Shown one piece after another: positions 38,005 to 59,490 of a DNA stretch of 64,000 nucleotides (its first letter is position 1; every line of letters starts with the position of its first letter). Made by a program: the position numbers and the translations under genes. A model generated the notes under the pieces. It saw nothing but the letters and a program-made list of their open reading frames with translations. It ran no database searches and was not told where the DNA came from. The stretch is from Mesorhizobium sp. M3A.F.Ca.ET.080.04.2.1 (GTDB taxonomy: Bacteria; Pseudomonadota; Alphaproteobacteria; Rhizobiales; Rhizobiaceae), in the NCBI RefSeq assembly GCF_003952525.1, contig NZ_CP034451.1, positions 930,001 through 994,000 on the forward strand, read 5' to 3'.

Positions 38005-39612
38005 CTACTGTCCTGCGACCTTCAGTTCGCCGGTGGCAACCTTGCCGACAAAACTGCGCATCACGTCGAACGTCAGTAGGTTCACGCTGCCATCTGCAAC
38101 CATGCCTACCGCCACGTCCGAAAAATGATCGGCGACAAAGCGCGCAACCGCAGCTTCCTTCTTTGGTAGCGCCGCGATCAGGCATGAAGCGTTGCCGACG
38201 ATCCATGTGTCCCCGGACTTGGCAAACCTGAAGGCGACGTGGTCGGTGCCGTCGGGATATTTTATAGTGCCCAGGGCGCAAGAAGCGACCTTGCGGGCTG
38301 ATTTCGTAGGAGCGTTCAGGAACATCTCAAGTGTACCGATGTCCCCAGGGACAGCGGAATGAACTACGACAGCCAGGGAGAAATTCGGCGTTCCGCCGGA
38401 TTTGTCGATCTTGATGTCTAGATCCGTGACATAGGTCGAGTCGTTGCCTCCCATTTGCGCCTGCCCCTCATACGCATGTACCTTGAACACGGGCATCAGT
38501 AGACCGGACGGTGACGCAACATCCTTCGGCACGTTCGAGACGGACCCCACTTCCAGTGGCGGCTCGATGAATCTTCCCTTGGGCAAAGCAGCGGTTGCAG
38601 GGTCCGAGTAGAGCGCGAGGAAGGACCTCACAGTCGCGACGCTTAAATCCCGAGGTGCGGCGCCCGCCGGCAACGTGCGGCAACTCAGCGCCATTTCGCG
38701 GGTGCGCTCGTTGGGACGCCCGTCCGGCTTGCCGACATCACAGCCCAAAGCATTGAGAGTCACCTGCAGCGATTTGAGCGCGAGGGCGTCGCCTTGAGTA
38801 TAGAGACCGTCGCGAGTTTCAGCCCGGCTCACCGCCGCGAAGTACAGCGACGCGCCTCTGACCCGAGCGACCGATTGGGTGCAACAAAGGTAGATGCCGA
38901 ACTTCGCGTAATTTGTGCGCTCGAATCCGGGAGTGAAGGTAGGTCCACGCCACTCCGTGACAAGTTTACCATCGAGGTATACCTTAACCTGGCCGGAGCT
39001 GTCCTTCGCCCATTTGATGAACAGTTCGAAGCGGCTCCACTTTCCAATGAGATTCTTGAAATCAGTTACTTTTAGGCGCGGACCTGGCGTGCAGCTGTAA
39101 TTTCCGAGCGCGCTACTGAATGCAATGTAGAGGGAGTCGTCTTTTCCAGCGAAATTTGCGAGTGACACGTGCTGGCATTGTTTGTTGTGAAAATAGAATA
39201 ATTGCATGTAACCGTCAGCTTGTTTTACGCCATACGGGAAGTCCTCTGGCAAGTAGAGAGCGAATCCATACCAACTCTGTTTCGGTTGCCCATTGCCGTT
39301 TTTTTTGGTCGCAAAGACGTTTTCACGAATTTGCGACCGTACCGACTGCTCATCGCAGTCGTTGGCTGGAGCATGCGGCTCATACCGGCGTGGATTGCAA
39401 TAACCTGAGGGAATCCGAAATGAATACACCTTGGGGGTCGGTGCCTCGCCGGTCGGGTCTTCGATGATCGCAACGGAGTTGGGAGCACTCAACTCATCAA
39501 TTACGAAAGGATCGAAACCGGTTTCTTCGGCGGCCTCCACCGGGCCCCTGGCACAAAACAAAACCGCAGCCACAAGCAAGGCTGCAATAACGTTGAAACG
39601 CGGGTGGAGCAT
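38005..39612 (-). CDS. Secreted heparin-lyase-I-type polysaccharide lyase with peptidoglycan-binding-like module
   Basis: A 535-residue secreted protein with signal peptide (MLHPRFNVIAALLVAAVLFC). Residues 30-265 form a jelly-roll typical of the polysaccharide lyase family PF14099 (QSWYGFALYLPEDFPYG and GKWSRFELFIKWAKDSSGQV). Residues 286-305 (LNALGCDVGKPDGRPNERTR) form a peptidoglycan-binding-type repeat. The C-terminal 230 residues have no recognised fold. The gene starts at ATG 39612 behind GAGGAGG. Probably acts on an acidic extracellular or cell-wall polysaccharide. Base composition is less GC-rich than flanking genes, suggesting acquisition. A similar module occurs in the divergent caspase protein. 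Confidence 0.75.
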   Translation of the reverse strand: MLHPRFNVIAALLVAAVLFCARGPVEAAEETGFDPFVIDELSAPNSVAIIEDPTGEAPTPKVYSFRIPSGYCNPRRYEPHAPANDCDEQSVRSQIRENVFATKKNGNGQPKQSWYGFALYLPEDFPYGVKQADGYMQLFYFHNKQCQHVSLANFAGKDDSLYIAFSSALGNYSCTPGPRLKVTDFKNLIGKWSRFELFIKWAKDSSGQVKVYLDGKLVTEWRGPTFTPGFERTNYAKFGIYLCCTQSVARVRGASLYFAAVSRAETRDGLYTQGDALALKSLQVTLNALGCDVGKPDGRPNERTREMALSCRTLPAGAAPRDLSVATVRSFLALYSDPATAALPKGRFIEPPLEVGSVSNVPKDVASPSGLLMPVFKVHAYEGQAQMGGNDSTYVTDLDIKIDKSGGTPNFSLAVVVHSAVPGDIGTLEMFLNAPTKSARKVASCALGTIKYPDGTDHVAFRFAKSGDTWIVGNASCLIAALPKKEAAVARFVADHFSDVAVGMVADGSVNLLTFDVMRSFVGKVATGELKVAGQ

Positions 39613-39862
39613 CGCACCCTCCTCTGGATTTTCCAGCGCGTCCGGACTTCATCATTCAACTAGATATCGGCCGATGATGCCTGTCTCTCGCCTGATACTG
39701 TGCTCTTGCGCGGAATTCGACAAGCTCGGACCAGTGGATCGACAGACCATCAGCACTCAATGCCTTGCTTGCGTGATGCCCGGCGATGCGAGTCTGAGAA
39801 CGGCACCGCTGTACCGTCGGCCAGCCGCTCCGTCATTCGCGGCGCGGCTCCTACCTGATCAT

Positions 39863-40648
39863 CTAGCGTTGTTTCGTCACAAGTTGACGCACAAAGGCCA
39901 ACGCTTGCCGTTTGCAACCGCTGCTCACCATCCATCCAAGAACTTCCAGCGGATTTTCGAGAACAGCGTTCTCCGGAAACATCTTAATTTCGATCAACGC
40001 CGATGTCTTGTTGGTCTCGACGACAATCGATTTTACCTCGGCCGGAATTGGATCCGGAAGAGAGAAAGTGAGCCTGTCGGCGTTCCAGACCAAGCCGTTC
40101 AATGGCTCTCCATGTCCGACGCGAACCGACAACACCGCGCTGTCGCCGACCGCCTGGCGCGTCAAAACCACCTCGCCATTGCGGATGCAGCCAGGAGCAG
40201 ATTCTTCGATGGAAATCGCCCAGGGATCGTCAAGTCCCCTCGGTTGGGAATGGTTGGGGATGGCGCGTGCGCTACCGATGGACTCGCTTCTTTTGCGCTC
40301 ATTCGTCAAAAGGCCGGCTATCAGGGCCAGGCTTGAAGGTCCTGCCTGCCCGTCGGCGGCCCGCTCTGAACCGTCAGGCACCAACCGGTCCTCGGTGACC
40401 ACGAAGGCTCCAGGACCGGAAATGGGGTTCACGCTGCCGTCCTCGCCGAGCAAGGTGACGACTGTACCGGCTGGCACATTGATGACGTCACTTGGCATGA
40501 AGAGCTTGCCTGGCGGCAGTTCATCCACGGCCGGCTCAGCTGACAGGACCACATATTGACTGCCTGCCACCGCGCGTTGCGCCGTCACAACAACGGCCGC
40601 GGCGAGGGCCAGAAAGGCGAACTGCGAGATCGCACGCCTGAGGCTCAT
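39863..40648 (-). CDS. FecR-like periplasmic protein
   Basis: A 261-residue protein with a signal peptide (MSLRRAISQFAFLALAAAVV, cleavage near AVA-GS) and a short FecR-type domain (VPAGTVVTLLGEDGSVNPIS) in which a beta-strand motif with a turn Gly-Pro-Gly (ISGPGAF) is visible. FecR domains commonly sit in periplasmic sensors. It starts at ATG 40648, 13 bp behind the cyclase stop, so it is cotranscribed with it and may present a periplasmic signal to the CHASE2 domain. The C-terminal half (ALIEIKMFPENAVLENPLEV) has no match. Confidence 0.7.
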   Translation of the reverse strand: MSLRRAISQFAFLALAAAVVVTAQRAVAGSQYVVLSAEPAVDELPPGKLFMPSDVINVPAGTVVTLLGEDGSVNPISGPGAFVVTEDRLVPDGSERAADGQAGPSSLALIAGLLTNERKRSESIGSARAIPNHSQPRGLDDPWAISIEESAPGCIRNGEVVLTRQAVGDSAVLSVRVGHGEPLNGLVWNADRLTFSLPDPIPAEVKSIVVETNKTSALIEIKMFPENAVLENPLEVLGWMVSSGCKRQALAFVRQLVTKQR

Positions 40649-40661
40649 GGCAAGGATGGCC

Positions 40662-42734
40662 CTATTTGTCGGCGAGATGAATGTCTGCTTGAAAGCGTCC
40701 GCTTGCAAGACGACTGTGGTGAAAGGCTATCAATGCATCTTCGGGATAGCTTTTGACCAGCAGCTCAAATGCCCCTGTCGCGAGCTTATCGTCGGTGGCG
40801 AGCAGGGCGTATGCCTTTGCATAAGCCTCGCACAGCATCGTGTTCTCTGGCGTGGGGCTCATTGCCTCGAAAGCCTCGATACCTTGGCTCTTGCCCTTTA
40901 GGTGCAGAACTCCCGCAGGGCGCAACAAAAAGCGTGTCGCTTGTTTCGCCACTTCCGCGCTTATGCAATTTTTCGTGCCGATGTACTTGTTTGCGCCCTC
41001 CAGCCGGGCTGCGGTGTTTACCGTGTCTCCAATAGCTGTGTAGTTGAAGAACCGATTTCCCCCGAAGTTGCCGACGATTGCCGGCCCGCCGTGAATACCT
41101 ATGCGGGTGGCGCCGAATGAATGGCCTCGTCCTGCGGATCTTTCTCGCAGCCGCTGAGCCAGGTCCTGCACAGCCAGTGCCAGGGACACTGCCCGCTCCG
41201 CCTGGTCATTTTGCGCCGCTGGAGCTCCGAAGAAGCCGACCACCGCATCTCCGATGACCTTGTCGATGGTTGCACCATGCTCGATGAACAACTCGCAGAG
41301 CCCGTCCAGATATTCATTCAATAGGTCTGCCAGCACCTCTGGCGCAAGTTTTTCGCTGAGTGACGTAAATCCCTCGACATCCGTGAATACACAGGTGATC
41401 TCACGCCGTTCGCCACCGAGATGCAGGGCAGCGGGCTGCTCGACGACCGCTGCAACGACCGCCGGACTGACATATTTCGAGAACGCGTCTTGAATGAAGT
41501 GGCGAGCTTTCGCGTCCCGTCTCCAAGCCAGGAAGCCAACGAATGCCGACAGACCGAGCACAAGCAATGCAGGTGCGACCATCGGAAACAGGATTGCGAA
41601 CTTCGCGAAGACCCAGGCTTGGCCGATCCACACCAGCAGCACCGCTCCGGCGACCGCGATTGGTTTGAAGACCACCGGATTCGGCCGCGAAACGATCCAC
41701 AAGCAGAACAGCCCGACAAGAAGCATTGGCGCGTACCCCGCTGCAGCCCGGGGGATCGTTATTCTGTTCCCGGACAACATTCCGGCCAACGCGTGGGCGT
41801 GGATTGCGACGCCAGGGAGAACACCGATCTTTGCGCCGCTCAACAACGCAAACGGTGTCGGATGATGGTCTATTTGCTGCAGGTCCATGCCGATAAGAAC
41901 ATATTTCCCCTTGAACCAGCTGAGTGGCGCCAGCCTGACGGCCTGTGCCGGATAGGTTGGAAAGTTGAAGGGCAAGCTGTTCGCGGTGCGGTAGTAGACC
42001 ATTTCCTCCGGCCAGCGGCCGCGACCAATGCCGGTCGCTGCCGCGATCGCAGCAGCAAAGCTTGGCGTCCAACCTCCTTCCGTTTCCCGACCTGAAAAAG
42101 CTCCACGAACCACGCCGTCGAGATTGTCATGCGATAATGCGGCAAGGCCCCGCTTTGCCGACGGAGCGAACGCGTCGAGATAGTCGGACTGCCTCCGGGT
42201 GAGACCATCAATGCGCGACGCCGAGGCGATCACCACAGGCACACTGGCGTTTTCAATGACCGTTTCGAGCCGGGCGTCCTTTTGCGGCTCTGTCGCCTGG
42301 TCGAATAACAGGTCGATACCGATGACAAGAGGGTGGGCCGACTCGATCCGGGCCACGATGTCGGCCAAGAAGCCGCGGTCCAGTGGTGAGCGATATGGAA
42401 AATTCGCCAGGGTCTGTTCTGTTATCGAGACCACAACGATGTTGGATGGGGGCTGGGTGAACGGCGAGATCGACACCGTCATCACGTCGCGCACTATATT
42501 CTCCAACGGCGGTGACACGAGAGCAGTCGAGACGCCCAGCAGAACCAGATAGGCGAATGATGCGGCGATGCCACCTCGGTGCAGGCTGACGACTCGGCCA
42601 AGTGTTCGCACGCCCAATAGACCCCAAGCCAGTGGAAGCGTTGCTCGCCGCCAGCATACCCGTTCGGGTGTATCAAGCAAATTGTCGCCCGTTAGTATGG
42701 AAATCCCGGCCCGCGCCGAAACGGCAGTCGCCAA
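40662..42734 (-). CDS. CHASE2-domain adenylate cyclase
   Basis: A 690-residue membrane protein: a short cytoplasmic N-terminus, one membrane helix (GIAASFAYLVLLGVSTALVS), a periplasmic CHASE2 sensor domain (about residues 85-325), three helices (about 325-400), then a class III cyclase domain. Both metal aspartates are present (FTDVEGFT and GDAVVGFFG), the lysine is in IDKVIGDA, the Asp that selects adenine is in IGDTVNTAARLEG, and the transition-state Asn and Arg follow. Substrate ATP is therefore predicted. The start is a TTG (42734) with GGAG upstream at seven bases. It precedes the FecR-like gene. Confidence 0.87.
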   Translation of the reverse strand: MATAVSARAGISILTGDNLLDTPERVCWRRATLPLAWGLLGVRTLGRVVSLHRGGIAASFAYLVLLGVSTALVSPPLENIVRDVMTVSISPFTQPPSNIVVVSITEQTLANFPYRSPLDRGFLADIVARIESAHPLVIGIDLLFDQATEPQKDARLETVIENASVPVVIASASRIDGLTRRQSDYLDAFAPSAKRGLAALSHDNLDGVVRGAFSGRETEGGWTPSFAAAIAAATGIGRGRWPEEMVYYRTANSLPFNFPTYPAQAVRLAPLSWFKGKYVLIGMDLQQIDHHPTPFALLSGAKIGVLPGVAIHAHALAGMLSGNRITIPRAAAGYAPMLLVGLFCLWIVSRPNPVVFKPIAVAGAVLLVWIGQAWVFAKFAILFPMVAPALLVLGLSAFVGFLAWRRDAKARHFIQDAFSKYVSPAVVAAVVEQPAALHLGGERREITCVFTDVEGFTSLSEKLAPEVLADLLNEYLDGLCELFIEHGATIDKVIGDAVVGFFGAPAAQNDQAERAVSLALAVQDLAQRLRERSAGRGHSFGATRIGIHGGPAIVGNFGGNRFFNYTAIGDTVNTAARLEGANKYIGTKNCISAEVAKQATRFLLRPAGVLHLKGKSQGIEAFEAMSPTPENTMLCEAYAKAYALLATDDKLATGAFELLVKSYPEDALIAFHHSRLASGRFQADIHLADK

Positions 42735-42809
42735 GAACCATCTCCGGGATCGCAGGCCGTTCGTCCGCAGCCCGGGGGCATAGCTCTTTTCGACTGTATT
42801 AGCCTCTGC

Positions 42810-42827
42810 TACAATTCCTCGGGGGAG
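42810..42827 (+). promoter_or_regulatory. Candidate caspase gene -10 box and ribosome site
   Basis: TACAAT (42810-42815) is a good -10 and TTTTCG, 17 bp upstream (42787-42792), a weak -35. GGGGGAG (42821-42827) is a strong Shine-Dalgarno 11 bp before ATG 42839. The 104-bp gap is shared with the divergent cyclase gene, so both genes may be controlled from one region. Confidence 0.4.
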
Positions 42828-42838
42828 CCGTTTCTGCC

Positions 42839-44485
42839 ATGCGCAGCGCTTTCATTCTCTTGGCTTTATTGTTTGTCGCTGTTTCGGGTCAGGCAGCAGC
42901 CGAGAAACGCGTGGCGCTGGTTATTGGCAATTCGGCCTATCAGCATACCGTCCAACTCGCCAACCCGAAGAACGATTCGTCCGACATGAATGCCAAGCTT
43001 GAAACCCTTGGCTTCGAGGTCGTCAGCGGCCAGGACCTCGATCTCGCGGGAATGCGTCGCACGGTGCGTGAGTTCTTGGAAAAGCTCGACGGTGCCGATA
43101 TGGCGCTGTTTTTCTATGCCGGGCACGGCCTGCAGGTGAATGGCAGCAATTACATGGTGCCGGTCGATGCCGAGTTGTCCGGCTACAATGACCTCGATTT
43201 CGAGACACTTCCGATGGACCTCGTGCTTTCAGCGATGGAGCGCAGCACCAAGGTCAACCTCATCTTCCTGGACGCCTGCCGGGACAATCCGTTCGCCGAG
43301 AAGCTTTCCCGCTCGATGGGGACGCGCTCCGGTTCCGTGAGTCGGGGGCTAGCCAGGCTCGGCAGCGGAGTCGGCTCGCTCATAGCGTTCGCAACGCAAC
43401 CGGGTAATGTCGCTGTCGACGGAGCAGGACGGAATTCACCATTCACCACTGCGCTGGTTGCTCACCTCGGCACGCCGGGGCAGGACATCATGCGGGACCT
43501 CGTCGAGGTGCGCCGCGATGTCCTGGCTGCGACGCAGGGCAAGCAAGTGCCGTGGGAGAACTCTTCGCTCACCGGCGAGGTTGTGTTGAGGCCCCTCGCA
43601 ACGGAACCGAAGGTAGCTACCGTCACTCCACAGTCGACGTCGCCGGACAATGCAGTCGAACTTGCATATTGGGCGACTATCAAGGACTCGACTGACAAGA
43701 GCTTTTTCGAGGCGTATTTGCAGCAGTTTCCGGGCGGCGCTTTTGCACCGCTTGCGAGGTTGAAGATCGACGCGATCGACAAGCGCATCGAAATGGAACG
43801 GCAGGTGGCGCACCTGCCGGAGACGGAGCGCGCCGCTAAGGCAACCGACGACGCCAAGGGGACAGAAGTCGCAAGCCTTGAGCACTCCGAGCCGCTGGCG
43901 CAGCCATCGGCAGCTGCCACAGACCCCAGCAGACTTGCGCGCGCCACGCAAACGGAACTCTTCCGCATAGGATGCCTTGAAGGCCAGGCTGACGGAAAAT
44001 GGGGGGCTGGCAGCCGCAAAGCGCTTCGGGACTATGCTGATCGGCAAGGGGTCAAGCTTGCATCGTTGGAACCGACAGCGGAACTTCTGGCACGACTAAG
44101 GGCAGTCAGAGCTCGCATCTGCCGGCTTACTTGTGAAGACGGAACGAGGGTGCAGGACGATCATTGTGTGCCTCAGACGAGCGGGCTAAGCGCCTTTAAT
44201 GGCACTTGGAAATTGGTCAGACGAGCCATAACGGACTGTGGCGATTGGCGAGAACTCTCAACATCGGTCGTCATAAGTGACGGTAAGATATCGTCTAGCA
44301 GCGGCTTTACTGGAAGTATTTCCAGCAGCGGCGCTGTCAATATAAGACACACCTTTGTTTATAAGGGAAGAACAGGCGGGAACACCCTGACTGGCGTCAT
44401 AAAGGGTGACAACGGAACCGGCAAATTTAAAGGGACCGGCGTTGGCACCGGGTGTTCAGGAAAAATTATCATGGAGAGAATGTAG
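42839..44485 (+). CDS. Secreted caspase-family (p20) protease with peptidoglycan-binding-like module
   Basis: A 548-residue exported protein with signal peptide (MRSAFILLALLFVAVSGQAA). The caspase p20 fold covers residues 24-240, with the dyad His96 in FFYAGHGLQV and Cys147 in IFLDACRDNPF. Residues 374-393 (LFRIGCLEGQADGKWGAGSR) form a peptidoglycan-binding-type repeat. The last 110 residues, Ser/Gly-rich with cysteine pairs, may be a beta-sandwich. Bacterial caspase homologues (orthocaspases) usually cleave after Arg or Lys. It is divergent from the CHASE2 cyclase and shares the module with the polysaccharide lyase. The 3' end is AT-richer than flanks. Confidence 0.85.
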   Translation: MRSAFILLALLFVAVSGQAAAEKRVALVIGNSAYQHTVQLANPKNDSSDMNAKLETLGFEVVSGQDLDLAGMRRTVREFLEKLDGADMALFFYAGHGLQVNGSNYMVPVDAELSGYNDLDFETLPMDLVLSAMERSTKVNLIFLDACRDNPFAEKLSRSMGTRSGSVSRGLARLGSGVGSLIAFATQPGNVAVDGAGRNSPFTTALVAHLGTPGQDIMRDLVEVRRDVLAATQGKQVPWENSSLTGEVVLRPLATEPKVATVTPQSTSPDNAVELAYWATIKDSTDKSFFEAYLQQFPGGAFAPLARLKIDAIDKRIEMERQVAHLPETERAAKATDDAKGTEVASLEHSEPLAQPSAAATDPSRLARATQTELFRIGCLEGQADGKWGAGSRKALRDYADRQGVKLASLEPTAELLARLRAVRARICRLTCEDGTRVQDDHCVPQTSGLSAFNGTWKLVRRAITDCGDWRELSTSVVISDGKISSSSGFTGSISSSGAVNIRHTFVYKGRTGGNTLTGVIKGDNGTGKFKGTGVGTGCSGKIIMERM

Positions 44486-44559
44486 AACCGCGGAGTCCTC
44501 CGTCGTCCGCACCTATGTTGAAAGGCCTTTGCCGTCGGCCAGCAGTGACAGAATCTCCG

Positions 44560-49743: not shown

Positions 49744-51084
49744 CTATTTCTGCCGGAACGCCGTGTGCAGCGACGCCGTCAGCGGACCGAGAATGTAATC
49801 CAGTGCGGTGCGCTCCTCGGTGACGATCATCACCGAGGCCGGCATGCCGGGGTAGAGCTGGATCTGCGGCGCGGCGGCGAGTTCGTCGGCGTCCACCGCG
49901 ACATCGGCCACATAGTAGGGAAAGCCGGTCTTGGCGTCGGTGACGCGGTCGGCCGAGATATGAGTGACCTGGCCGTGAATGACTGGCGTCGTGCGCTGCT
50001 TGTAGGAGGTGAAGCGGATCTCGGCGGTCATGTCGGCGCGCAGGCTGGAGATATCCTCCACGCGCACCTGGGCCTGGACGATCAGCGAATTCCTGGTCGG
50101 CACGATGTCGAGGATCGTCTGGCCGGGGGCGACGATGGCGCCGGTGGAGAAGACGGTGAGGTCCATCACCTGGCCGTCATAGGGCGCGCGCACCTCGGCG
50201 CGGTTCATCATGGCCTGTGCGGCAAACATCTTCGGCACCAGGTCGGCAAGGTTCGCCTGCGTCTCGATCAGCATGGCTGACAGCTTTGCCCGGCGCTCGT
50301 TGGTGAGCTGCGCGATCTGGCTCTCGAGCTCGGCCTTGCTCTGGCGGTTGCCCGCGATCTCGCCGAGCGCCTGGTCGATCAGGCCCTGCAGGTCGGAGGC
50401 CGACCGGTCGAGCTCCAGGATGCGTGGCTTCGTCGTCAGCCCGGCTTTCAGCAGCTTGTTAAGCCCGGCCTTCTCGTCCACGGTGGATTTCAGCTGCGCG
50501 CGGAAGGACTCGACGCGCGCCTGCTTGCCCTCGATCTGCTCCTCGAGCTCGGCGATCCGCTTCTGCAGGATCTGCCTGGCGCCGGCCATCTGCGCCCGCT
50601 GGCTCTCGAGGTCGGCGATCTGGCTCGCCATCGCGTCCTGCAGATAGGCCTGATGCTCGGCGGTGATGTCCTTCGGAAAGGCGACCGCCTCGCTGCCGTC
50701 GAGCTCGGCCCGGATGCGAGAATCGGTGGCGCGCAGCAGCGCGTATTGCTGCGAATAGAGATTGAACTCCGCGCGGGCGCGGGTGTCGTCGAGCAGGACC
50801 AGCACGTCGCCCGACTTGACGACATCGCCGTCCTTGACCCGGATCTGCTTCACCGTGCCGCCATCGAAATGCTGGACGCTCTTGCGGTTGCCCTCGACCT
50901 TGACCACCGCGTCGGCCAGCACCGCGCCGTTGAGCGGCGCGACCGCCGCCCAGCCGCCGAACACGCCGAAGAACGCGGCAATGATGAGCACGCCGACCCA
51001 GACCGGTCCACGGATCGAATCCGGGTTGGCGCCGGCTTTGTCGCCAACGGAGAGGCTGTGGTAGGTGGCGGCGACGTCGGTCAT
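49744..51084 (-). CDS. Type I secretion membrane fusion protein, HlyD/PrtE family
   Basis: A 446-residue adaptor with one membrane helix (VWVGVLIIAAFFGVFGGWAA), a periplasmic lipoyl-type domain (VKQIRVKDGDVVKSGDVLVL), a long coiled-coil (residues 155-300, QKRIAELEEQIEGKQARVES) and a C-terminal beta domain. It links the ATPase and TolC across the periplasm. ATG 51084 overlaps the ATPase stop as ATGA. With the ATPase it forms the T1SS adjacent to the VCBS/RTX protein, its likely cargo. A TolC gene is not in the window. Confidence 0.9.
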   Translation of the reverse strand: MTDVAATYHSLSVGDKAGANPDSIRGPVWVGVLIIAAFFGVFGGWAAVAPLNGAVLADAVVKVEGNRKSVQHFDGGTVKQIRVKDGDVVKSGDVLVLLDDTRARAEFNLYSQQYALLRATDSRIRAELDGSEAVAFPKDITAEHQAYLQDAMASQIADLESQRAQMAGARQILQKRIAELEEQIEGKQARVESFRAQLKSTVDEKAGLNKLLKAGLTTKPRILELDRSASDLQGLIDQALGEIAGNRQSKAELESQIAQLTNERRAKLSAMLIETQANLADLVPKMFAAQAMMNRAEVRAPYDGQVMDLTVFSTGAIVAPGQTILDIVPTRNSLIVQAQVRVEDISSLRADMTAEIRFTSYKQRTTPVIHGQVTHISADRVTDAKTGFPYYVADVAVDADELAAAPQIQLYPGMPASVMIVTEERTALDYILGPLTASLHTAFRQK

Positions 51085-52832
51085 TGGGTGGCCACCGCCA
51101 TCGGCGCCGCGCGCTGGTTGAGCAGCGCCACGATCTCGTTCTTCATGCCGAAGGCCTCGACGCCGCCGTCCCTCAAGAGCAGGATCTTGTCGACATTGGC
51201 AAGCGTGGAAGGCCGGTGCGAGACGATGATCACCGTGCTGCCGCGACGCTTGAGCTCCAGCGCGCATTCGGCGAGCGCGCGGTCGCCATCGGCGTCGAGA
51301 TTGGAGCTCGGCTCATCGAGCACGATGAGGTTCGGAGTGCCGAACACCGCGCGGGCAAGCGCGATGCGCTGGCGGTAGCCGCCCGACAGCACCGCCCCGC
51401 CCTCGCCGATCTGCGTTTCATAGCCTTGCGGCAGCCGGATGATCATCTCATGCACGCCGGCGAGCCGGGCGGCCTCGATCACGTCGCGATCGACATCGGT
51501 CTTGAAGCGGCCGATGTTGGCGGCCACCGTGTCGGAAAACAGCTCGATGTCCTGCGGCAGATAGCCGATATGGTCGCCGAGCGCCTCCCGGCCCCATTGC
51601 GTCAGATCGGCGCCGTCCAGCCGCACCGTGCCGCGGCTCGGCTGCATGATGCCGGCGAGATGGCGGGCGAGCGTCGACTTGCCGGCGCCGGACGGCCCGA
51701 CGATGCCGAGCGCCTCGCCGGCCTCCAGCCGGAACGAGACATCGCGCAGCAGCACCTTCTGCAGGCTGGGGATGGCGAAGCTGAGCTGCTCGACGGCGAT
51801 CTTGCCGGTGGGCTTCGGCAGGTTGAACGCACGTTCGCCCTGAGCGCTGCCGTCCAGGAGCTTCTCGACCCGGCCGAGCGCGGCACGGGCAAGGATCAGG
51901 CTGCGCCAGAGGCCGACGATCTGCTCGATGGGCTGCAGCCCCCTGCCCAGCAACAGGCTCGCCGCGAACATCGAGCCGCCGGTGATCTGCCGCTCGATGA
52001 CCAGATAGGCGCCGAGGCCGAGGATCAGCGACTGCATGGCGAGGCGCAGAAAGCGGATCATCCCGGACATCAGCGCCGCCCGGTCGCTGGCCTGCCCCTG
52101 TCGCCGCAGCGCCTGGCCGCGATCGCGCCCCCAGCGGCGCACCAGCCCGTCGATCATGCCCATGGCGCGGACGACTTCCGCGTTCCTGAGGCTCATTTCG
52201 GTGAAATTGTAGCTGGCCGTGGCAAGGTCATTGGCCTGCTTGAGCGGCGCCCGCACCATGTATTCGTTGAGCACCGCCATGGCGATCAACAGCAGCGAGG
52301 AGCCGAGCGCGAAGAAGCCGAGCCACGGGTGCAGCAGGAAGATGATGCCGATATAGATCGGCGACCACGGCAGATCGAACAGCGCATGGATGCCGCTGCC
52401 GGTGATCACTTGCCGGAACGTATCGAAATCGCGGATCGGCTGGCTTTGCGAGGCCCCTTGCGACGGGGTCTCGACGGAAGCCGCCAGGATCTTGGCCGAC
52501 AGCAGCCGGTCGAGCCGGGCGCTGGCACGCGTCAGGATCGCGGCGCGCACAAGGTCGAGCCCGGCGAGCGCCAGGAAGGCCGCAAGCAGCACCAGGGTCA
52601 GCATCACCAGCGTCGTCTCGCTGCCGCTGGTGACCACCCGGTCATAGATCTGCAGCATGTAGAGCGGCGATGCGAGATAAAGCAGGTTGATCGCCAGGCT
52701 GAATACCGCCGCAAAGAGGAAATAGCGGCGGCATGCGAGAAGCGCTTGCCTGACGATCCTGGATTTGTTGTCGAGACCCAAAACACCCAGCGGCAGAACC
52801 GCCCCCTGTCCAAACTGCATGCCCAGAACCAA
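51081..52832 (-). CDS. Type I secretion ATP-binding/permease, PrtD/RsaD type
   Basis: A 583-residue exporter half: membrane domain with six helices in the first 320 residues (LFAAVFSLAINLLYLASPLY), then an ATPase domain with Walker A GPSGAGKSTLA, the signature LSGGYRQRIALARA and Walker B LIVLDEPSSNLD. PrtD-type ATPases export RTX proteins without N-terminal C39 processing domains; none is seen here. TTG 52832 has GGGAG five bases upstream and is preferred over the ATG at 52820. It lies 124 bp downstream of the VCBS gene on the same strand, beyond a hairpin terminator. Confidence 0.9.
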   Translation of the reverse strand: MVLGMQFGQGAVLPLGVLGLDNKSRIVRQALLACRRYFLFAAVFSLAINLLYLASPLYMLQIYDRVVTSGSETTLVMLTLVLLAAFLALAGLDLVRAAILTRASARLDRLLSAKILAASVETPSQGASQSQPIRDFDTFRQVITGSGIHALFDLPWSPIYIGIIFLLHPWLGFFALGSSLLLIAMAVLNEYMVRAPLKQANDLATASYNFTEMSLRNAEVVRAMGMIDGLVRRWGRDRGQALRRQGQASDRAALMSGMIRFLRLAMQSLILGLGAYLVIERQITGGSMFAASLLLGRGLQPIEQIVGLWRSLILARAALGRVEKLLDGSAQGERAFNLPKPTGKIAVEQLSFAIPSLQKVLLRDVSFRLEAGEALGIVGPSGAGKSTLARHLAGIMQPSRGTVRLDGADLTQWGREALGDHIGYLPQDIELFSDTVAANIGRFKTDVDRDVIEAARLAGVHEMIIRLPQGYETQIGEGGAVLSGGYRQRIALARAVFGTPNLIVLDEPSSNLDADGDRALAECALELKRRGSTVIIVSHRPSTLANVDKILLLRDGGVEAFGMKNEIVALLNQRAAPMAVATQ

Positions 52833-52920
52833 TACTACTCCCGATCTTCCACCCGGCCACGCGATCCACTCGTAAACCTGCCGTAAACCTTAATTCGTAA
52901 CCCTCGCCCGGCGGGAAACG

Positions 52921-52950
52921 AGGTGAGCCGTGCGTGGCCGCGGCTCACCT
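52921..52950 (-). terminator. Hairpin terminator after the VCBS gene
   Basis: AGGTGAGCCG (52921-52930) pairs perfectly with CGGCTCACCT (52941-52950) around a 10-base loop, six bases past the VCBS stop codon. The following minus-strand bases (CGTTTC) are only weakly T-rich. The T1SS ATPase gene lies just beyond, so some readthrough or a separate promoter is needed for it. Confidence 0.7.
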
Positions 52951-52956
52951 TGTTCG

Positions 52957-55900
52957 TTACAGCACGAAGTCGCTGGCGGTCAGGCCAAGCCCGGTGCCGG
53001 TCAGCGTGATCTGGAAATCGGCCGTTGCATTGCCATTGACATCGACACGCACAATCGTGTTGCCGCCGACTTCCGACCAGGTGATGCTGTTGGCGACGGT
53101 GGCCGCGTTGAACCCGCCGAACAGGAAAGCCTGGTCTCCGCCGCTCACCGTATTGGCATCGATCGACGAGAGGTCGATCTTGTCGACGCCGTGCACGAAG
53201 TCGGTGATGGTGTCGTTTGCGACACTTACCGGTGAGTCTGAGATGGCCGATCCGTAGTAGAAGGTATCGGCTCCCAAACCGCCGGTGAGCGTATCGGCTC
53301 CAACACCGCCGACGAGCCTGTCATTGCCATCACCGCCATTCAGCGTGTCGTTGCCATCCTGTCCGAACAGCGTGTCATTGCCGGCCATGCCGAGAATGAT
53401 GTCGGCCCCGCCGTTGCCATAGAGGACATCGTCGCCCCCGTTGGCTCCGTTGAGGCCATCGCTCGAATTGCCATTGCTTCCGGTGATGACCTGGAACGTC
53501 TCGCTGTATTGATACGTTGGCCCCGCGGGGTCGCCGACCTGAGTTGCCTGCACTGTGATTGAGTAAGCTTTGCTGGGTGACAAGCCGGACAGGCTTGAGC
53601 TGAGTGTGTTGCCCGAGATTGAGAAAAGCCCAGGGTCCGACTGCGAAGTGATGCTGTAGACGAAGCTGCCGCCCGGATCTGGATCGGTGGCGCTCAGCGT
53701 TCCCGTGAACTGGAAGGAACTGAAGCTGACGTCAGCGGTCGTGGTGCTCGGCGTCAATTGGATATCCGTCGGCGCAAAACGCGGCGGGCCGTCATCCGTC
53801 CCAAGGATATCGATGGCTATCGAGGTGTGGGTTCCGTCGGCGCTGACCACGTCGAAGTTTTCCGTATAATGCTGGCCGGCGATGAACTCGTCATGCGCCG
53901 AGGACGCGGTGTAAGTCCAGGCGCCGGCTGCGTTGATGGCGAAGGTGCCGTAGAGGCCGGCGGTCGCAGCCTGAACGACGAATGTCGCCGAACTGTCCAC
54001 ATCCGAGATGGTGAGCGTGCCCGACGTCGAGATGTCGGCGGCCGCGTTGCCTTCTGTCAGGTTGACCGACGCGGACGATAGCACCGCCGCATCGTTGGCG
54101 CCGTTGATGGTGATGTCGATGACCTGTTGCGTGCCGTCGACAGTGGTGACCGTCACCAACTCGTGCAGCGTGGTGTTCGCTCCGGTGCTGTTCAGCGCCT
54201 GAACGGTGGCGTTGTTGTCGTCGAGCGTGTAGCTCCAGGTGCCGTTGGCATCGATCGAGAAGGTGCCATAGCTCTTGGCGACGGCGACTTGCGTGTTGAA
54301 GGTCGCCGCATTGTCGACATCGCTCGCGTTGAGATCGCCGGAGGCAGTGGCGTCGCCGGGCGTGCCGTTGGCGACGCCGCTCTTTTCGGTGACCGAGGTG
54401 TCTTGCACCCCGTTGACGGTGATCACCGCCGCGTCGTTGGCGCCGTTGATGGTGATATCGATGACCTGTTGCGTGCCGTCGACAGTGGTGACCGTCACCA
54501 GCTCATACAGCGTGGTGTTCGCTCCGCTGCTGTTCAGCGCCTGAACGGTGGCATTGTTGTCGTCGAGCGTGTAGCTCCAGGTGCCGTTGGCATCGATCGA
54601 GAAGGTGCCGTAGCTCTTGGCGACGGCGACCTGTGCGGTGAAGGTCGCCGCATTGTCGACATCGGTCGCATTAAGATCGCCGGAAGCAGTGGCGTCGCCT
54701 GGCGTGCCGTTGGCGACGCCGCTCTTTTCCGTAACGGACGTGTCTTGGGCGCCGTTGAGCGTTATCACCGCGGCGTCGTTGGTGCCGAGGATGTTGATCG
54801 TCACCGTGGTCGGGGTGCCGTCGGCGCTGACCACATTGAAGGTGTCGGTGTAGGTGGTGCCGGCGACGAACTCGTCATGCGCCGAGGACGCCGTGTAGGT
54901 CCAGGCGCCATCGGCATCGATGGCGAAGGTGCCGTAGAGGCCGGCGGTGCCGGCCTGGGCGACGAAGTGCGGATCACTGTCGACGTCCGAGATGGTCAGC
55001 GTGCCCGAGGTCGAGATGTCGGCGGCCGCGTTGGTCTCGGTCAGGTTCTTCACGTCGGACGACAGCACCGCGGCGTCGTTGGTGCCGAGGATGTTGATCG
55101 TCACCGTGGTCGGGGTGCCGTCGGCGCTGACCACATTGAAGGTGTCGGTGTAGGTGGTGCCGGCGACGAACTCGTCATGCGCCGAGGACGCCGTGTAGGT
55201 CCAGGCGCCATCGGCATCGATGGCGAAGGTGCCGTAGAGGCCGGCGGTGCCGGCCTGGGCGACGAAGTGCGGATCACTGTCGACGTCCGAGATGGTCAGC
55301 GTGCCCGAGGTCGAGATGTCGGCGGCCGCATTGGTCTCGGTCAGGTTCTTCACGTCGGACGACAGCACCGCGGCATCGTTGGTGCCGAGGATGTTGATCG
55401 TCACCGTGGTCGGGGTGCCGTCGGCGCTGACCACATTGAAGGTGTCGGTGTAGGTGGTGCCGGCGACGAACTCGTCATGCGCCGAGGACGCCGTGTAGGT
55501 CCAGGCGCCATCGGCATCGATGGCGAAGGTGCCGTAGAGGCCGGCGGTGCCGGCCTGGGCGACGAAGTGCGGATCACTGTCGACGTCCGAGATGGTCAGC
55601 GTGCCCGAGGTCGAGATGTCGGCGGCCGCATTGGTCTCGGTCAGGTTCTTCACGTCGGACGACAGCACCGCGGCATCGTTGGTGCCGAGGATGTTGATCG
55701 TCACCGTGGTCGGGGTGCCGTCGGCGCTGACCACATTGAAGGTGTCGGTGTAGGTGGTGCCGGCGACGAACTCGTCATGCGCCGAGGACGCCGTGTAGGT
55801 CCAGGCGCCATCGGCATCGATGGCGAAGGTGCCGTAGAGGCCGGCGGTGCCGGCCTGGGCGACGAAGTGCGCATCACTGTCGACGTCCGAGATGGTCAGC

Positions 55901-58900
55901 GTGCCCGAGGTCGAGATGTCGGCGGCCGCATTGGTCTCGGTCAGGTTCTTCACGTCGGACGACAGCACCGCGGCATCGTTGGTGCCGAGGATGTTGATCG
56001 TCACCGTGGTCGGGGTGCCGTCGGCGCTGACCACATTGAAGGTGTCGGTGTAGGTGGTGCCGGCGACGAACTCGTCATGCGCCGAGGACGCCGTGTAGGT
56101 CCAGGCGCCATCGGCATCGATGGCGAAGGTGCCGTAGAGGCCGGCGGTGCCGGCCTGGGCGACGAAGTGCGGATCACTGTCGACGTCCGAGATGGTCAGC
56201 GTGCCCGAGGTCGAGATGTCGGCGGCCGCATTGGTCTCGGTCAGGTTCTTCACGTCGGACGACAGCACCGCGGCGTCGTTGGTGCCGAGGATGTTGATCG
56301 TCACCGTGGTCGGGGTGCCGTCGGCGCTGACCACATTGAAGGTGTCGGTGTAGGTGGTGCCGGCGACGAACTCGTCATGCGCCGAGGACGCCGTTAGGTC
56401 CAGGCGCCATCGGCATCGATGGCGAAGGTGCCGTAGAGGCCGGCGGTGCCGGCCTGGGCGACGAAGTGCGGATCACTGTCGACGTCCGAGATGGTCAGCG
56501 TGCCCGAGGTCGAGATGTCGGCGGCCGCGTTGGTCTCGGTCAGGTTCTTCACGTCGGACGACAGCACCGCGGCATCGTTGGTGCCGAGGATGTTGATCGT
56601 CACCGTGGTCGGGGTGCCGTCGGCGCTGACCACATTGAAGGTGTCGGTGTAGGTGGTGCCGGCGACGAACTCGTCATGCGCCGAGGACGCCGTGTAGGTC
56701 CAGGCGCCATCGGCATCGATGGCGAAGGTGCCGTAGAGGCCGGCGGTGCCGGCCTGGGCGACGAAGTGCGGATCACTGTCGACGTCCGAGATGGTCAGCG
56801 TGCCCGAGGTCGAGATGTCGGCGGCCGCGTTGGTCTCGGTCAGGTTCTTCACGTCGGACGACAGCACCGCGGCGTCGTTGGTGCCGAGGATGTTGATCGT
56901 CACCGTGGTCGGAGTGCCGTCGGCGCTGACCACATTGAAGGTGTCGGTGTAGGTGGTGCCGGCGACGAACTCGTCATGCGCCGAGGACGCCGTGTAGGTC
57001 CAGGCGCCATCGGCATCGATGGCGAAGGTGCCGTAGAGGCCGGCGGTGCCGGCCTGGGCGACGAAGTGCGGATCACTGTCGACGTCCGAGATGGTCAGCG
57101 TGCCCGAGGTCGAGATGTCGGCGGCCGCGTTGGTCTCGGTCAGGTTCTTCACGTCGGACGACAGCACCGCGGCGTCGTTGGTGCCGAGGATGTTGATCGT
57201 CACCGTGGTCGGGGTGCCGTCGGCGCTGACCACATTGAAGGTGTCGGTGTAGGTGGTGCCGGCGACGAACTCGTCATGCGCCGAGGACGCCGTGCAGGTC
57301 CAGGCGCCATCGGCATCGATGGCGAAGGTGCCGTAGAGGCCGGCGGTGCCGGCCTGGGCGACGAAGTGCGGATCACTGTCGACGTCCGAGATGGTCAGCG
57401 TGCCCGAGGTCGAGATGTCGGCGGCCGCGTTGGTCTCGGTCAGGTTCTTCACGTCGGACGACAGCACCGCGGCATCGTTGGTGCCGAGGATGTTGATCGT
57501 CACCGTGGTCGGGGTGCCGTCGGCGCTGACCACATTGAAGGTGTCGGTGTAGGTGGTGCCGGCGACGAACTCGTCATGCGCCGAGGACGCCGTATAGGTC
57601 CAGGCGCCATCGGCATCGATGGCGAAGGTGCCGTAGAGGCCGGCGGTGCCGGCCTGGGCGACGAAGTGCGCATCACTGTCGACGTCCGAGATGGTCAGCG
57701 TGCCCGAGGTCGAGATGTCGGCGGCCGCATTGGTCTCGGTCAGGTTCTTCACGTCGGACGACAGCACCGCGGCGTCGTTGGTGCCGAGGATGTTGATCGT
57801 CACCGTGGTCGGGGTGCCGTCGGCGCTGACCACATTGAAGGTGTCGGTGTAGGTGGTGCCGGCGACGAACTCGTCATGCGCCGAGGACGCCGTGTAGGTC
57901 CAGGCGCCATCGGCATCGATGGCGAAGGTGCCGTAGAGGCCGGCGGTGCCGGCCTGGGCGACGAAGTGCGGATCACTGTCGACGTCCGAGATGGTCAGCG
58001 TGCCCGAGGTCGAGATGTCGGCGGCCGCGTTGCCTTCCGTGAGATTGCGCACGTCGTGTGAAACGACGGCAGCATCGTTCGTCCCAGTAATGTTGACCAC
58101 GATGTTGTAGGTGGCCGTGCCATCGGCCGACTTCACCTGCAGCATATCGGTTACTTGCTGGCCTTGCGTCAGCGGGTCGGCCAGCGTCTGATTGAGGGCG
58201 TATGTCCACGCTCCGGATGTCGCGTCGAAGGTGAAGGTACCGTAGGTGCCTTGAAGACTGGGCGGCGTCTGGAAATGGTTCTCATTGAGATCGACGTCCG
58301 AAATAATGAGCTGTCCGTGCGCGCTGGGGTCGCCGGGCGTGCCGTTGGCGACGCCGCCCGCTTCCACTACGGTGTTGTCGACGGCGGCGGCGGCTGTGAT
58401 CGTCGCGCCATCATTTTTACCCTGGATGTTGACCGAAACGCTTGCCCAGCTCAGCGTTCCATTGCCGAGCTTGATGGCATAGGTGAAGGTCTCGTTGATG
58501 TTGTCACCAGCGCCTAGCGCCTGCAGGCTGGTGAAACCATGCGATAGCAGATATTGGCTGAGGTCCATCTCGACCTTGCCATTGTTGATGCGGATAGAAA
58601 CCCCGCCGCCGATGCTTTCCCAGTTGGAGATGCCGGTTGCCTGGACGTCCTGGGTGGTCAGGTCGATCGGCGCGTATTGCTTGGTGGCCGTTGAGGCGGA
58701 AATTCCGTCATCGACCGAAAAGAGGGTCTTCGCATTGCCCCCAAGATCGTTCGCCATCACGTCGAGCAGGATGATGGACTGGGCGGCGTTGACGATGACG
58801 ACATTGTCTTCAGTGTAATTGAAGACATCACCCTGCGCCTGCGGTGTGTTGGAGAATGACGTCGTGGTGCCGCCCGCGCCGGAAATTGTCGTAGTAGCCA

Positions 58901-58901
58901 T
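52957..58901 (-). pseudogene. Giant VCBS-repeat/RTX surface protein, interrupted by a one-base deletion
   Basis: A T1SS-type surface protein whose intact form would be about 1,980 residues. The N-terminal 200 residues are unique, then VCBS-type repeats of 100 residues (FAIDADGAWTYTASSAHDEF, TINILGTNDAAVLSSDVKNL), two variants near 54060-54770, and a C-terminal RTX block (GGDDVLYGNGGADIILGMAG, then GNDTLNGGDGNDRLVGG) and export signal. At 56391-56397 one repeat reads CCGTTAGG where the others read CCGTGTAGG; the missing G creates TAA, ending the N-terminal piece (835 residues, 56394-58901). The rest continues in another frame to 52957. ATG 58901 has AAGGGG upstream. Either a true loss or a sequencing/assembly slip in the repeats. 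Confidence 0.85.
54781..58079 (-). repeat. Eleven tandem near-identical 300-bp VCBS units
   Basis: Units start at 54781, 55081, 55381, 55681, 55981, 56281, 56580, 56880, 57180, 57480 and 57780. Each is 300 bp (100 residues) except the sixth, 299 bp, which carries the frameshift. Differences are single bases: for example GGATCACTG versus GCATCACTG (units 4 and 10, Pro to Ala), and TAG versus CAG, which changes one Tyr to Cys at 57293. Such identity, including at silent positions, points to recent amplification or gene conversion. Assembly of copy number from short reads would be unreliable. Confidence 0.95.
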
Positions 58902-59490
58902 CTCATTCACCCCTTTGGCGGACGCTCAGCGCCGCTCAATGCCGTCGAACCGACGACGCACCACCCCATGCCGAACGATTCGGCGCCCAGTCTCGCGGGG
59001 AGAGGAAAATGATCAGAATGCCATGGGACCAAGCGCAACCGAAGTGAATGGCCGGCGAACGGCCACCCCACAATGGCGGTTCACAGACGACGGCGGCTCA
59101 TGGTCATGGCTGCGACGGCATTGAATGCCGCCCTGCGTTTTCCCTGCCCCTGTAGCGCCGTGACTCGTTGTTGCCGATCGAGAGCTTGTTCACGCTACCC
59201 CATATATTAGGATATTATTAACCTACCCTCAGCTGCGTCAACCGCCAATTCGATGAAGAGTTAACGACAAAAGGCGTACTTGCACGCGATTGTGGATAAA
59301 CTTGATCAGCTGGATGGCTGTGCACGATGAAGATGCTTGCCAATTGGAGGCTGGCGCCAGGCAAAACGAATCGGGCGGAATTGCGCGCCCAAGCGCGTGG
59401 CGCTGAAACAGCTTCAGGCGAGGCGCTTTAAATCTTCGTCTCGTCCGTGCCGTTCTTACAAAACCGCTGCGCCGATTTGGGCGCCGTGTA
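58902..59490. other. 589-bp intergenic region upstream of the VCBS gene
   Basis: No gene is seen. It holds an AT-rich stretch near 59200-59225 with the candidate VCBS promoter, a long leader of about 300 bases to ATG 58901, and near 59459-59472 the sequence CAAAACCGCTGCGC, identical to part of the 58-bp hairpin unit at 10.2 kb, followed by a degenerate right arm (GATTTGGGCG). The latter lies next to the patatin stop and may be a decayed single copy of that element. Confidence 0.6.
59212..59241 (-). promoter_or_regulatory. Candidate promoter for the VCBS gene
   Basis: On the minus strand TTGACG (59241-59236) and TAATAT (59217-59212) are 18 bp apart, good matches to the sigma-70 boxes, in the only AT-rich stretch upstream of the gene. 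Transcription would start near 59205, leaving a leader of about 300 bases that could hold control elements. Confidence 0.45.

Follow-up and report, generated by a model that had tools for sequence, protein, structure and literature searches.

Pairs of a CHASE2 receptor and a FecR-type protein are already known. In the accessible parts of the sources cited here, the gene for MtxA adjoins a CHASE2 adenylate cyclase gene in magnetotactic bacteria (PMC4439547), gene clusters of Campylobacterota combine a CHASE2 adenylate cyclase with FecR, phosphodiesterase and tetratricopeptide-repeat (TPR) proteins (PMC9239204), and the BiofilmReg operon joins a LysM–FecR protein to a CHASE2 histidine kinase (PMC5192318). 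Sinorhizobium meliloti has a CyaD1/CyaD2/CyaK–Clr pathway with NsrA, in which a plant protein raises cyclic AMP (cAMP) and the Clr target SMc02177 has a FecR domain, and rhizobial CHASE2 cyclases have been linked to the control of root infection (PMC13001267, PMC5498481). For prokaryotic orthocaspases and metacaspases, putative peptidoglycan-binding domains and possible signal peptides have been described (PMC3501461, PMC6426788). Here we analyse 64,000 nucleotides of the 6.17-Mb, single-contig genome of Mesorhizobium sp. M3A.F.Ca.ET.080.04.2.1 (GCF_003952525.1, NZ_CP034451.1, positions 930,001 to 994,000; this whole stretch is called the window), in which a pair of this kind, a CHASE2 adenylate cyclase and a FecR/MtxA-like protein, is encoded beside a caspase-fold protease of the C14 family that is predicted to be exported.

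As in the Campylobacterota clusters, a CHASE2 cyclase here adjoins a FecR-type envelope protein, but the phosphodiesterase and TPR protein belong to those clusters, and the Mesorhizobium partner does not match the FecR model PF04773. BiofilmReg likewise pairs a FecR-type periplasmic protein with a CHASE2 receptor, although its output is a two-component system rather than cAMP, and no caspase was seen in the accessible part of its description. The S. meliloti pathway also has CHASE2 cyclases in a rhizobium, but its partners are the outer-membrane protein NsrA and Clr. Orthocaspases and metacaspases contain a p20 domain with a His–Cys dyad, as does the window caspase, whereas the cyanobacterial caspase–CHASE2 fusion (PMC3501461) represents another architecture. 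Neither caspase nor CHAT domain occurs in the text of PMC9239204, the word caspase is in neither main text of the S. meliloti papers (PMC13001267, PMC5498481), and neither cyclase nor FecR occurs in the survey of metacaspase operons (PMC3501461). The preliminary description of this DNA, made from its letters, knew of no described system with this set; consistent with that, no title or abstract among the matches listed in the open-licence literature describes caspase, CHASE2 cyclase and FecR together. Nor did we find, among the matches listed, a description of such pairs linked to caspase-fold proteases.

The three genes are kept together within and beyond Mesorhizobium

The preliminary description had linked four genes in a lower-GC stretch, for a polysaccharide lyase, a FecR-like protein, a CHASE2 cyclase and a divergent caspase. 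An open reading frame (ORF) check found all four in place (Table 1), and the reduced GC was confirmed: 0.53–0.62 across 38–45 kb, in a low-GC stretch extending to about 47 kb, versus mostly 0.63–0.69 in the rest of the window. GC at third codon positions (GC3) is 0.64–0.67 in the four genes, and 0.87, 0.82 and 0.78 in the nearest called genes (LacI-like, methyltransferase and MscS-like, respectively). The FecR-like gene is found in 6 of 61 Mesorhizobium genomes, and the same six carry close orthologues of the cyclase (at least 83% identity) and of the caspase (at least 85%), the caspase copy of G025 being broken by one stop. Nine distinct loci, drawn from the 61-genome set and a named collection, all show the caspase, cyclase and FecR-like genes in one divergent layout, within a block of about 4.7 kb that is 82–96% identical between loci in the aligned pieces. 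The window's flanking genes are shared only by WSM3859 (L023) and were not found in the other seven fetched stretches; the block has therefore been inserted or displaced in different surroundings. In WSM3859 (G025:C15:58942-60587), the stop lies near caspase residue 418–421, and the cyclase and FecR-like matches are free of stops.

Searches with a FecR-like profile, own genome included, were positive in 13 of 297 genomes at family level, 27 of 397 at order level and 38 of 385 at class level. Flanks were scanned in six frames, to a limit of 6 kb, with profiles for FecR-like, CHASE2, cyclase, C14 and CHAT domains; the class-level matches G955, G733 (two rows), G966, G856:C365 and the second G746 row were left out, and L074, a 3.6-kb contig with cyclase and FecR-like genes, is outside the family counts. 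A CHASE2 or cyclase match lies within the limit at 11/13 family, 21/23 order and 29/36 class loci; at L162, L163 and L165 (order level), CHASE2 is matched without a cyclase. C14 caspases are within reach at 6/13 family loci (one a fragment, L083), 14/23 order loci and 10/36 class loci, and CHAT proteins, which we take to be members of the caspase fold, at one order and ten class loci, L195 holding both. A caspase or CHAT protein is thus encoded near the FecR-like gene at 40 of 72 loci (6/13, 15/23 and 19/36).

At order level outside Mesorhizobium, 14 of 24 FecR-like loci have a caspase within 6 kb against 0.204 expected (Poisson-binomial P = 1.7e-24, a value that ignores kinship). The expectation applies to the fetched stretches and was computed from genome size and the PF00656 count of each genome, with counts taken to at most 6, and the 24 include as a miss L166, whose FecR-like match is under the profile threshold and which is outside the 23. 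In 8 of the 14 genomes with a caspase near the FecR-like gene, the whole genome holds a single PF00656 match. The preliminary description had proposed a search for co-occurrence in Rhizobiales neighbourhoods, and had held that its link would fall if each gene were usually found alone. The outcome was mixed: three genes recur as neighbours and the lyase is not a fixed member; the FecR-like gene is mostly near a CHASE2 or cyclase gene, and caspases as a family are mostly elsewhere.

Arrangements differ between lineages. In 20 loci (L078–L080, L143–L155, L188, L190, L191 and L197) the order is caspase, cyclase, FecR-like gene on one strand, and L083, with its caspase fragment, is a 21st. Across the 16 of these arrays that were measured, 27–126 nt separate the caspase stop from the start of the CHASE2 profile, and 26–111 nt separate the cyclase stop from the FecR-like match, except for 798 nt in L146. 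G075 (L077) follows the Mesorhizobium layout, although its sequences have diverged strongly (37% for the caspase, 52% for the cyclase). In L173, L174, L179 and L187, a TPR–CHAT protein gene is followed by the FecR-like gene and then the CHASE2 cyclase. In L085 and L160, the caspase adjoins the FecR-like gene without a CHASE2 cyclase match, which suggests a direct link between protease and adaptor; L160 has a TPR-type class III cyclase upstream. The three genes are kept together across genera, families and arrangements, and the place near the FecR-like gene is filled by different caspase lineages and also by CHAT, a second family of the caspase fold.

In phylogenetic trees, caspases of the 16 array-type loci fall into a single group (support 98/93), as do their cyclases (97/99), whose sub-groups mostly match those of the caspases. 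Caspases of the Mesorhizobium type cluster (96/91) with the L085 and G019 proteins, neither of which has a CHASE2 cyclase match alongside; Mesorhizobium-type cyclases lie outside the array-type group, and class-level caspases fall in several further places. Because the Mesorhizobium-type and class-level caspases lie outside the array group, the partnership of caspase and pair appears to have arisen or been renewed more than once; some branches are long, and the number of origins is uncertain. The caspase tree omits the fragment L083 and the interrupted caspase of L023, the cyclase tree omits cyclases that are truncated or split (L084, L188, L170 and L195), and the own-genome paralogue L003 is absent from the caspase profile, alignment and tree.

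Several loci have further neighbours. After the array of L145 come genes for a hybrid histidine kinase and an EAL-domain response regulator. In L173 (11695-16770 and 5574-6074), the CHAT, FecR-like and CHASE2 genes stand between a 1692-aa MBG-repeat protein and, next after them, a cNMP-binding protein, which may belong to the same system as secreted adhesin and cAMP receptor, respectively. L073–L076 hold cyclase–FecR-like pairs without a caspase match; a DUF898 gene adjoins the FecR-like gene in L074–L076, two of which (L075 and L076) encode an M48 metalloprotease as well, possibly another protease in the same role.

Catalytic residues and domain architecture

The caspase matches Peptidase_C14 (PF00656, E = 6e-45) in Pfam, and the MALT1 paracaspase aligns with its residues 17–149. 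Alignment confirmed the intact His96 and Cys147 of the preliminary description, and the window protein accordingly carries both marks of a C14 caspase or orthocaspase, the PF00656 domain and the His–Cys dyad. The catalytic residues of the protease are kept: the dyad is intact in all 37 complete caspases aligned from FecR-like neighbourhoods, and all 11 CHAT neighbours retain their His and Cys, the matches of L195 and L199 sitting in a short frame. Hydrophobic N-termini, recognized by a simple heuristic, are consistent with export and support the earlier prediction that all products but the cyclase lie outside the cytoplasm. The same description had joined caspase and lyase through a shared module, which is probably a PG_binding_1-like segment. 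In a database of 10, caspase residues 356–417 clearly match the PF01471 segment of a relative (E = 6e-18), but the lyase match is weak (E = 1e-4), the score of a direct lyase–caspase alignment was equalled by 35 of 1000 shuffles, and a Pfam scan reported PF01471 in neither protein.

The source genome has six caspases, only one of them at this locus, and distant caspases are frequent in the genus, with at least one match at E≤1e-60 in 48 of 61 genomes. One paralogue (G000:C1:1833784-1834446; L005, L018) is a pseudo-orthocaspase in which Arg and Ala replace the dyad. Two other caspases of this genome (L017, G000:C1:2012001-2032000) adjoin IcmF, PP2C and Ser/Thr kinase genes in a cluster that looks like type VI secretion, and caspase pairs a few kilobases apart, like this one, recur in many Mesorhizobium genomes.

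The cyclase matches both CHASE2 (PF05226, E = 3e-31) and Guanylate_cyc (PF00211, E = 2e-18) above the Pfam cut-offs. Its layout is one transmembrane (TM) segment, a periplasmic CHASE2 domain, three TM segments and a class III catalytic domain with a K/T base pair; hydropathy places the TM segments at 13–31 and 289–350 of the 649-aa form. The two Pfam domains and the TM segments around CHASE2 identify a CHASE2-type class III adenylate cyclase. We moved the start to GTG 42611, most likely the true one, because the reading frame upstream is not conserved between loci. All six catalytic residues (D, D, K, T, N and R) are present, presumably two metal-binding Asp, the adenine-selecting Lys and Thr, and the transition-state Asn and Arg. 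Across 67 cyclases including that of the window, the metal and transition-state residues are kept in every sequence with letters there (first D in all 66, second D in 67, N in 67 and R in 67), and K and T are present in 61 and 62, respectively. The catalytic residues support cAMP as the product, as had been predicted. At L020 5448-8750 (about 1.33 Mb of G000:C1), the same genome has another CHASE2–FecR pair, in which its second CHASE2 cyclase gene converges on a FecR gene proper (PF04773, E = 1e-10).

The FecR-like gene begins 13 nt past the cyclase stop, its start most likely being ATG 40648 because relatives have the same 261-aa form. The protein has an N-terminal beta domain, a linker with a near-invariant GxxR, a putative Ig-like domain and predicted C-terminal helices, and no Pfam family was assigned to it. 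PF04773 matched none of 46 relatives and none of 36 N-terminal domains at E≤1, and none of five distant relatives at E≤0.1; comparison of the family profile with the genome's true FecR gave no match either. As expected of an MtxA-like CHASE2 partner, the gene stands beside that of a CHASE2 receptor, and a predicted periplasmic partner of the cyclase is the best reading. The name 'FecR-like' was thus right in spirit for a CHASE2 partner, although the FecR model itself is not matched.

A candidate protease-coupled cAMP module at the cell surface

Discussion of bacterial caspases usually centres on cell death and, to our knowledge, few of these enzymes have a known partner. The present caspase has a conserved pair of partners, and in eight sampled genomes the caspase of the module is the only PF00656 match. 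We give about even chances to the view that a periplasmic caspase-fold protease is coupled, via an adaptor, to a CHASE2 cAMP sensor in a surface-signalling module. In such a module, the inner-membrane CHASE2 receptor would make cAMP in the cytoplasm, the periplasmic FecR/MtxA-like protein would serve as its adaptor, and the exported protease would act in the same compartment, coupled to the cyclase–adaptor pair. The protease might cut, or be held by, the CHASE2 domain or the adaptor; in this way a signal from the envelope or the plant surface could change cAMP and, with it, the expression of genes controlled by a cAMP receptor. More tentatively, we suggest that protease-gated cAMP signalling is general in Alphaproteobacteria, an exported C14 or CHAT protease cutting, or being sequestered by, the adaptor of a CHASE2 cyclase so that periplasmic proteolysis sets cAMP. 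If true, this would give bacterial caspases a regular role apart from cell death, filled by two caspase-fold families through independent recruitment. The conservation of the module points to a coupling between a caspase and cAMP signalling at the bacterial surface, and offers a small testable system with a protease, a candidate substrate and a measurable output, cAMP, in which periplasmic tuning of rhizobial CHASE2 receptors becomes directly testable.

Several observations weigh against this reading. Neither caspase nor CHAT lies within 6 kb at 32 of the 72 FecR-like loci, several of them on short contigs (7/13 family, 8/23 order and 17/36 class loci), and the cyclase–FecR-like pair can therefore work without the protease. 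Conversely, a full-length caspase relative (58% identity) occurs in G019, where the FecR-like protein is not matched. Caspase and cyclase genes run divergently in Mesorhizobium and G075, so joint transcription is not forced. The genomes compared are related, several coming from family f41, and the P value therefore overstates independence. Finally, the Arg of GxxR is conserved in 39 of 40 relatives with letters there from loci without a caspase, versus 38 of 38 with one. Orthocaspases cleave after positively charged residues (PMC6426788, accessible part), but given this equal conservation we rejected the Arg as evidence of a caspase-specific cleavage site.

It is possible, though we think it unlikely, that cyclase and FecR-like protein alone form the working unit; the caspase would then be an output under regulation, or would often lie nearby without acting on them, and cAMP would control the caspase and lyase genes via a CRP- or Clr-type regulator. 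Pairs without a caspase are common, the published CHASE2 and FecR-type pairs come without mention of a caspase in the accessible parts of their descriptions (PMC9239204, PMC4439547), caspase-profile matches are absent from the 16 kb examined at the genome's second CHASE2 cyclase, whose neighbour is a true FecR gene (PF04773), and S. meliloti CHASE2 cyclases act through Clr (PMC13001267, PMC5498481). However, array-type loci open with the caspase gene, which precedes the cyclase gene in the same orientation and therefore looks like a component; in L085 and L160 the caspase stays beside the FecR-like gene without a CHASE2 cyclase match; and the Mesorhizobium intergenic region lacks a match to a Clr motif.

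We consider it improbable that the genes are a passenger block of a variable Mesorhizobium genomic region, together only by moving as one piece. Low GC and GC3, presence in 6 of 61 genomes with changing flanks, and IS66-like and recombinase-like genes recognized by eye near some copies (L025, L051) would fit such a block, but the same three families adjoin in other families and orders, in other gene orders and with other caspase lineages. Hitchhiking in one genus therefore falls short as an explanation, already weakened by the order- and class-level loci.

Pycsar systems consist of a PycC cyclase and a nucleotide-sensing effector in the cytoplasm. A Pycsar- or CBASS-like cell-death or antiphage module, in which a cyclic nucleotide triggers a killing caspase, is very improbable here and was rejected: hits to PADLOC PycC models fall on the cyclase domain (best E = 3e-25), and a single PADLOC caspase model gives a weak match (E = 3e-8), but the PycC match is limited to the catalytic domain common to class III cyclases, the cyclase is a CHASE2 membrane receptor with the adenylate-cyclase K/T pair, the predicted export-type N-terminus probably places the caspase away from the nucleotide, and the scan of the four proteins matched no Pycsar effector model among the other three and no other kind of defence model.

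The lyase is a recurrent accessory in Mesorhizobium

Whereas the link between caspase, cyclase and FecR-like genes held (the same 6 of 61 genomes, and one order at 20 loci beyond the genus), the fourth member of the proposed set did not. The window lyase matches PF14099 (E = 2e-19, 70.6 bits against a cut-off of 29.9), and two of its relatives are named 'heparin lyase I family'. This long form is strongly matched in 2 of 61 Mesorhizobium genomes, both among the six with the block, and weakly in G036 (E = 4e-4). The nine loci have the long form in two cases, a short form in five and no lyase in two. The short lyase (about 270 aa) lies directly downstream of the FecR-like gene in L021, L022, L024, L046 and L047; the four that were scanned match PF14099 at E = 4e-5 to 2e-4 (21.7–23.9 bits), below the curated cut-off of 29.9, and many relatives carry PF14099, two being named polysaccharide lyase or heparin lyase I. 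Identity between the short and window lyases is about 24% over 165 residues, and profile comparison gave a probability of 26%; the lyase was apparently acquired twice.

Among the 61 genomes, the short form occurs only in G011, G018 and G046, all carrying the block. Of the 6 genomes with the block, 5 thus have a PF14099-type lyase beside it, and none of the 55 others gives a strong match to either form (Fisher P = 1e-6; 6e-6 with the weak G036 match included). No lyase is present in the fetched stretches of L025 and L051, and none was matched (E≤0.01) in the 74 non-Mesorhizobium stretches scanned. The lyase is therefore a recurrent Mesorhizobium accessory outside the core, and no support was found for the 'lysis' function that the preliminary description had suggested. 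It may remodel acidic exopolysaccharide, as an output of the module or a source of its signal. Near the two blocks that have no lyase, genes resembling IS66 (L025) and a recombinase (L051) were recognized by eye, and in L051 a GH10 glycosidase adjoins the caspase.

Coordinates, intergenic region and neighbouring genes

Table 1. Features of the locus, in window positions
Feature	Coordinates	Strand	Remarks
Lyase	38005-39612	-	Accessory polysaccharide lyase of the long form, PF14099; separated from the upstream FecR-like gene by 250 bp
FecR-like ORF, as called	39863-40708	-	Corrected, most likely: 39863-40648, 261 aa from ATG 40648
CHASE2 cyclase, longest ORF	40662-42734	-	Corrected, most likely: 40662-42611, 649 aa from GTG 42611
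C14 caspase, 548 aa, predicted to be exported	42839-44485	+	Signal-peptide-like N-terminus; p20 with His96/Cys147; PG_binding_1-like segment 356-417; C-terminal domain
Block of about 4.7 kb common to 9 Mesorhizobium loci	39838-44526	n/a	83-87% identity to the window (8 other loci, aligned pieces)
Candidate cyclase promoter, TTGCTT-16-TATGCT	42653-42680	-	Read by eye; segment well conserved in 9 loci; not reported by consensus scan
Candidate caspase promoter, TTTTCG-17-TACAAT	42787-42815	+	Read by eye; segment well conserved in 9 loci; not reported by consensus scan

When the region between cyclase and caspase was compared across the nine loci, its middle was poorly conserved and both edges were conserved, with hexamers that look promoter-like by eye; a scan for the sigma-70 consensus returned nothing in this region. 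A cAMP–Clr pattern, with at most one mismatch, gave three matches in the window versus 7.3 expected and none in the shared caspase–cyclase intergenic region, and a cAMP–Clr site there was rejected on that ground. A plasmid collection contained no match to the FecR-like protein, and plasmid carriage is not supported. Elsewhere in the window (49744-58910), the called ORFs include two of very large size and repetitive sequence, 838 and 1125 aa, beside apparent transporter genes; judged by eye, they probably encode a secreted adhesin and its export system.

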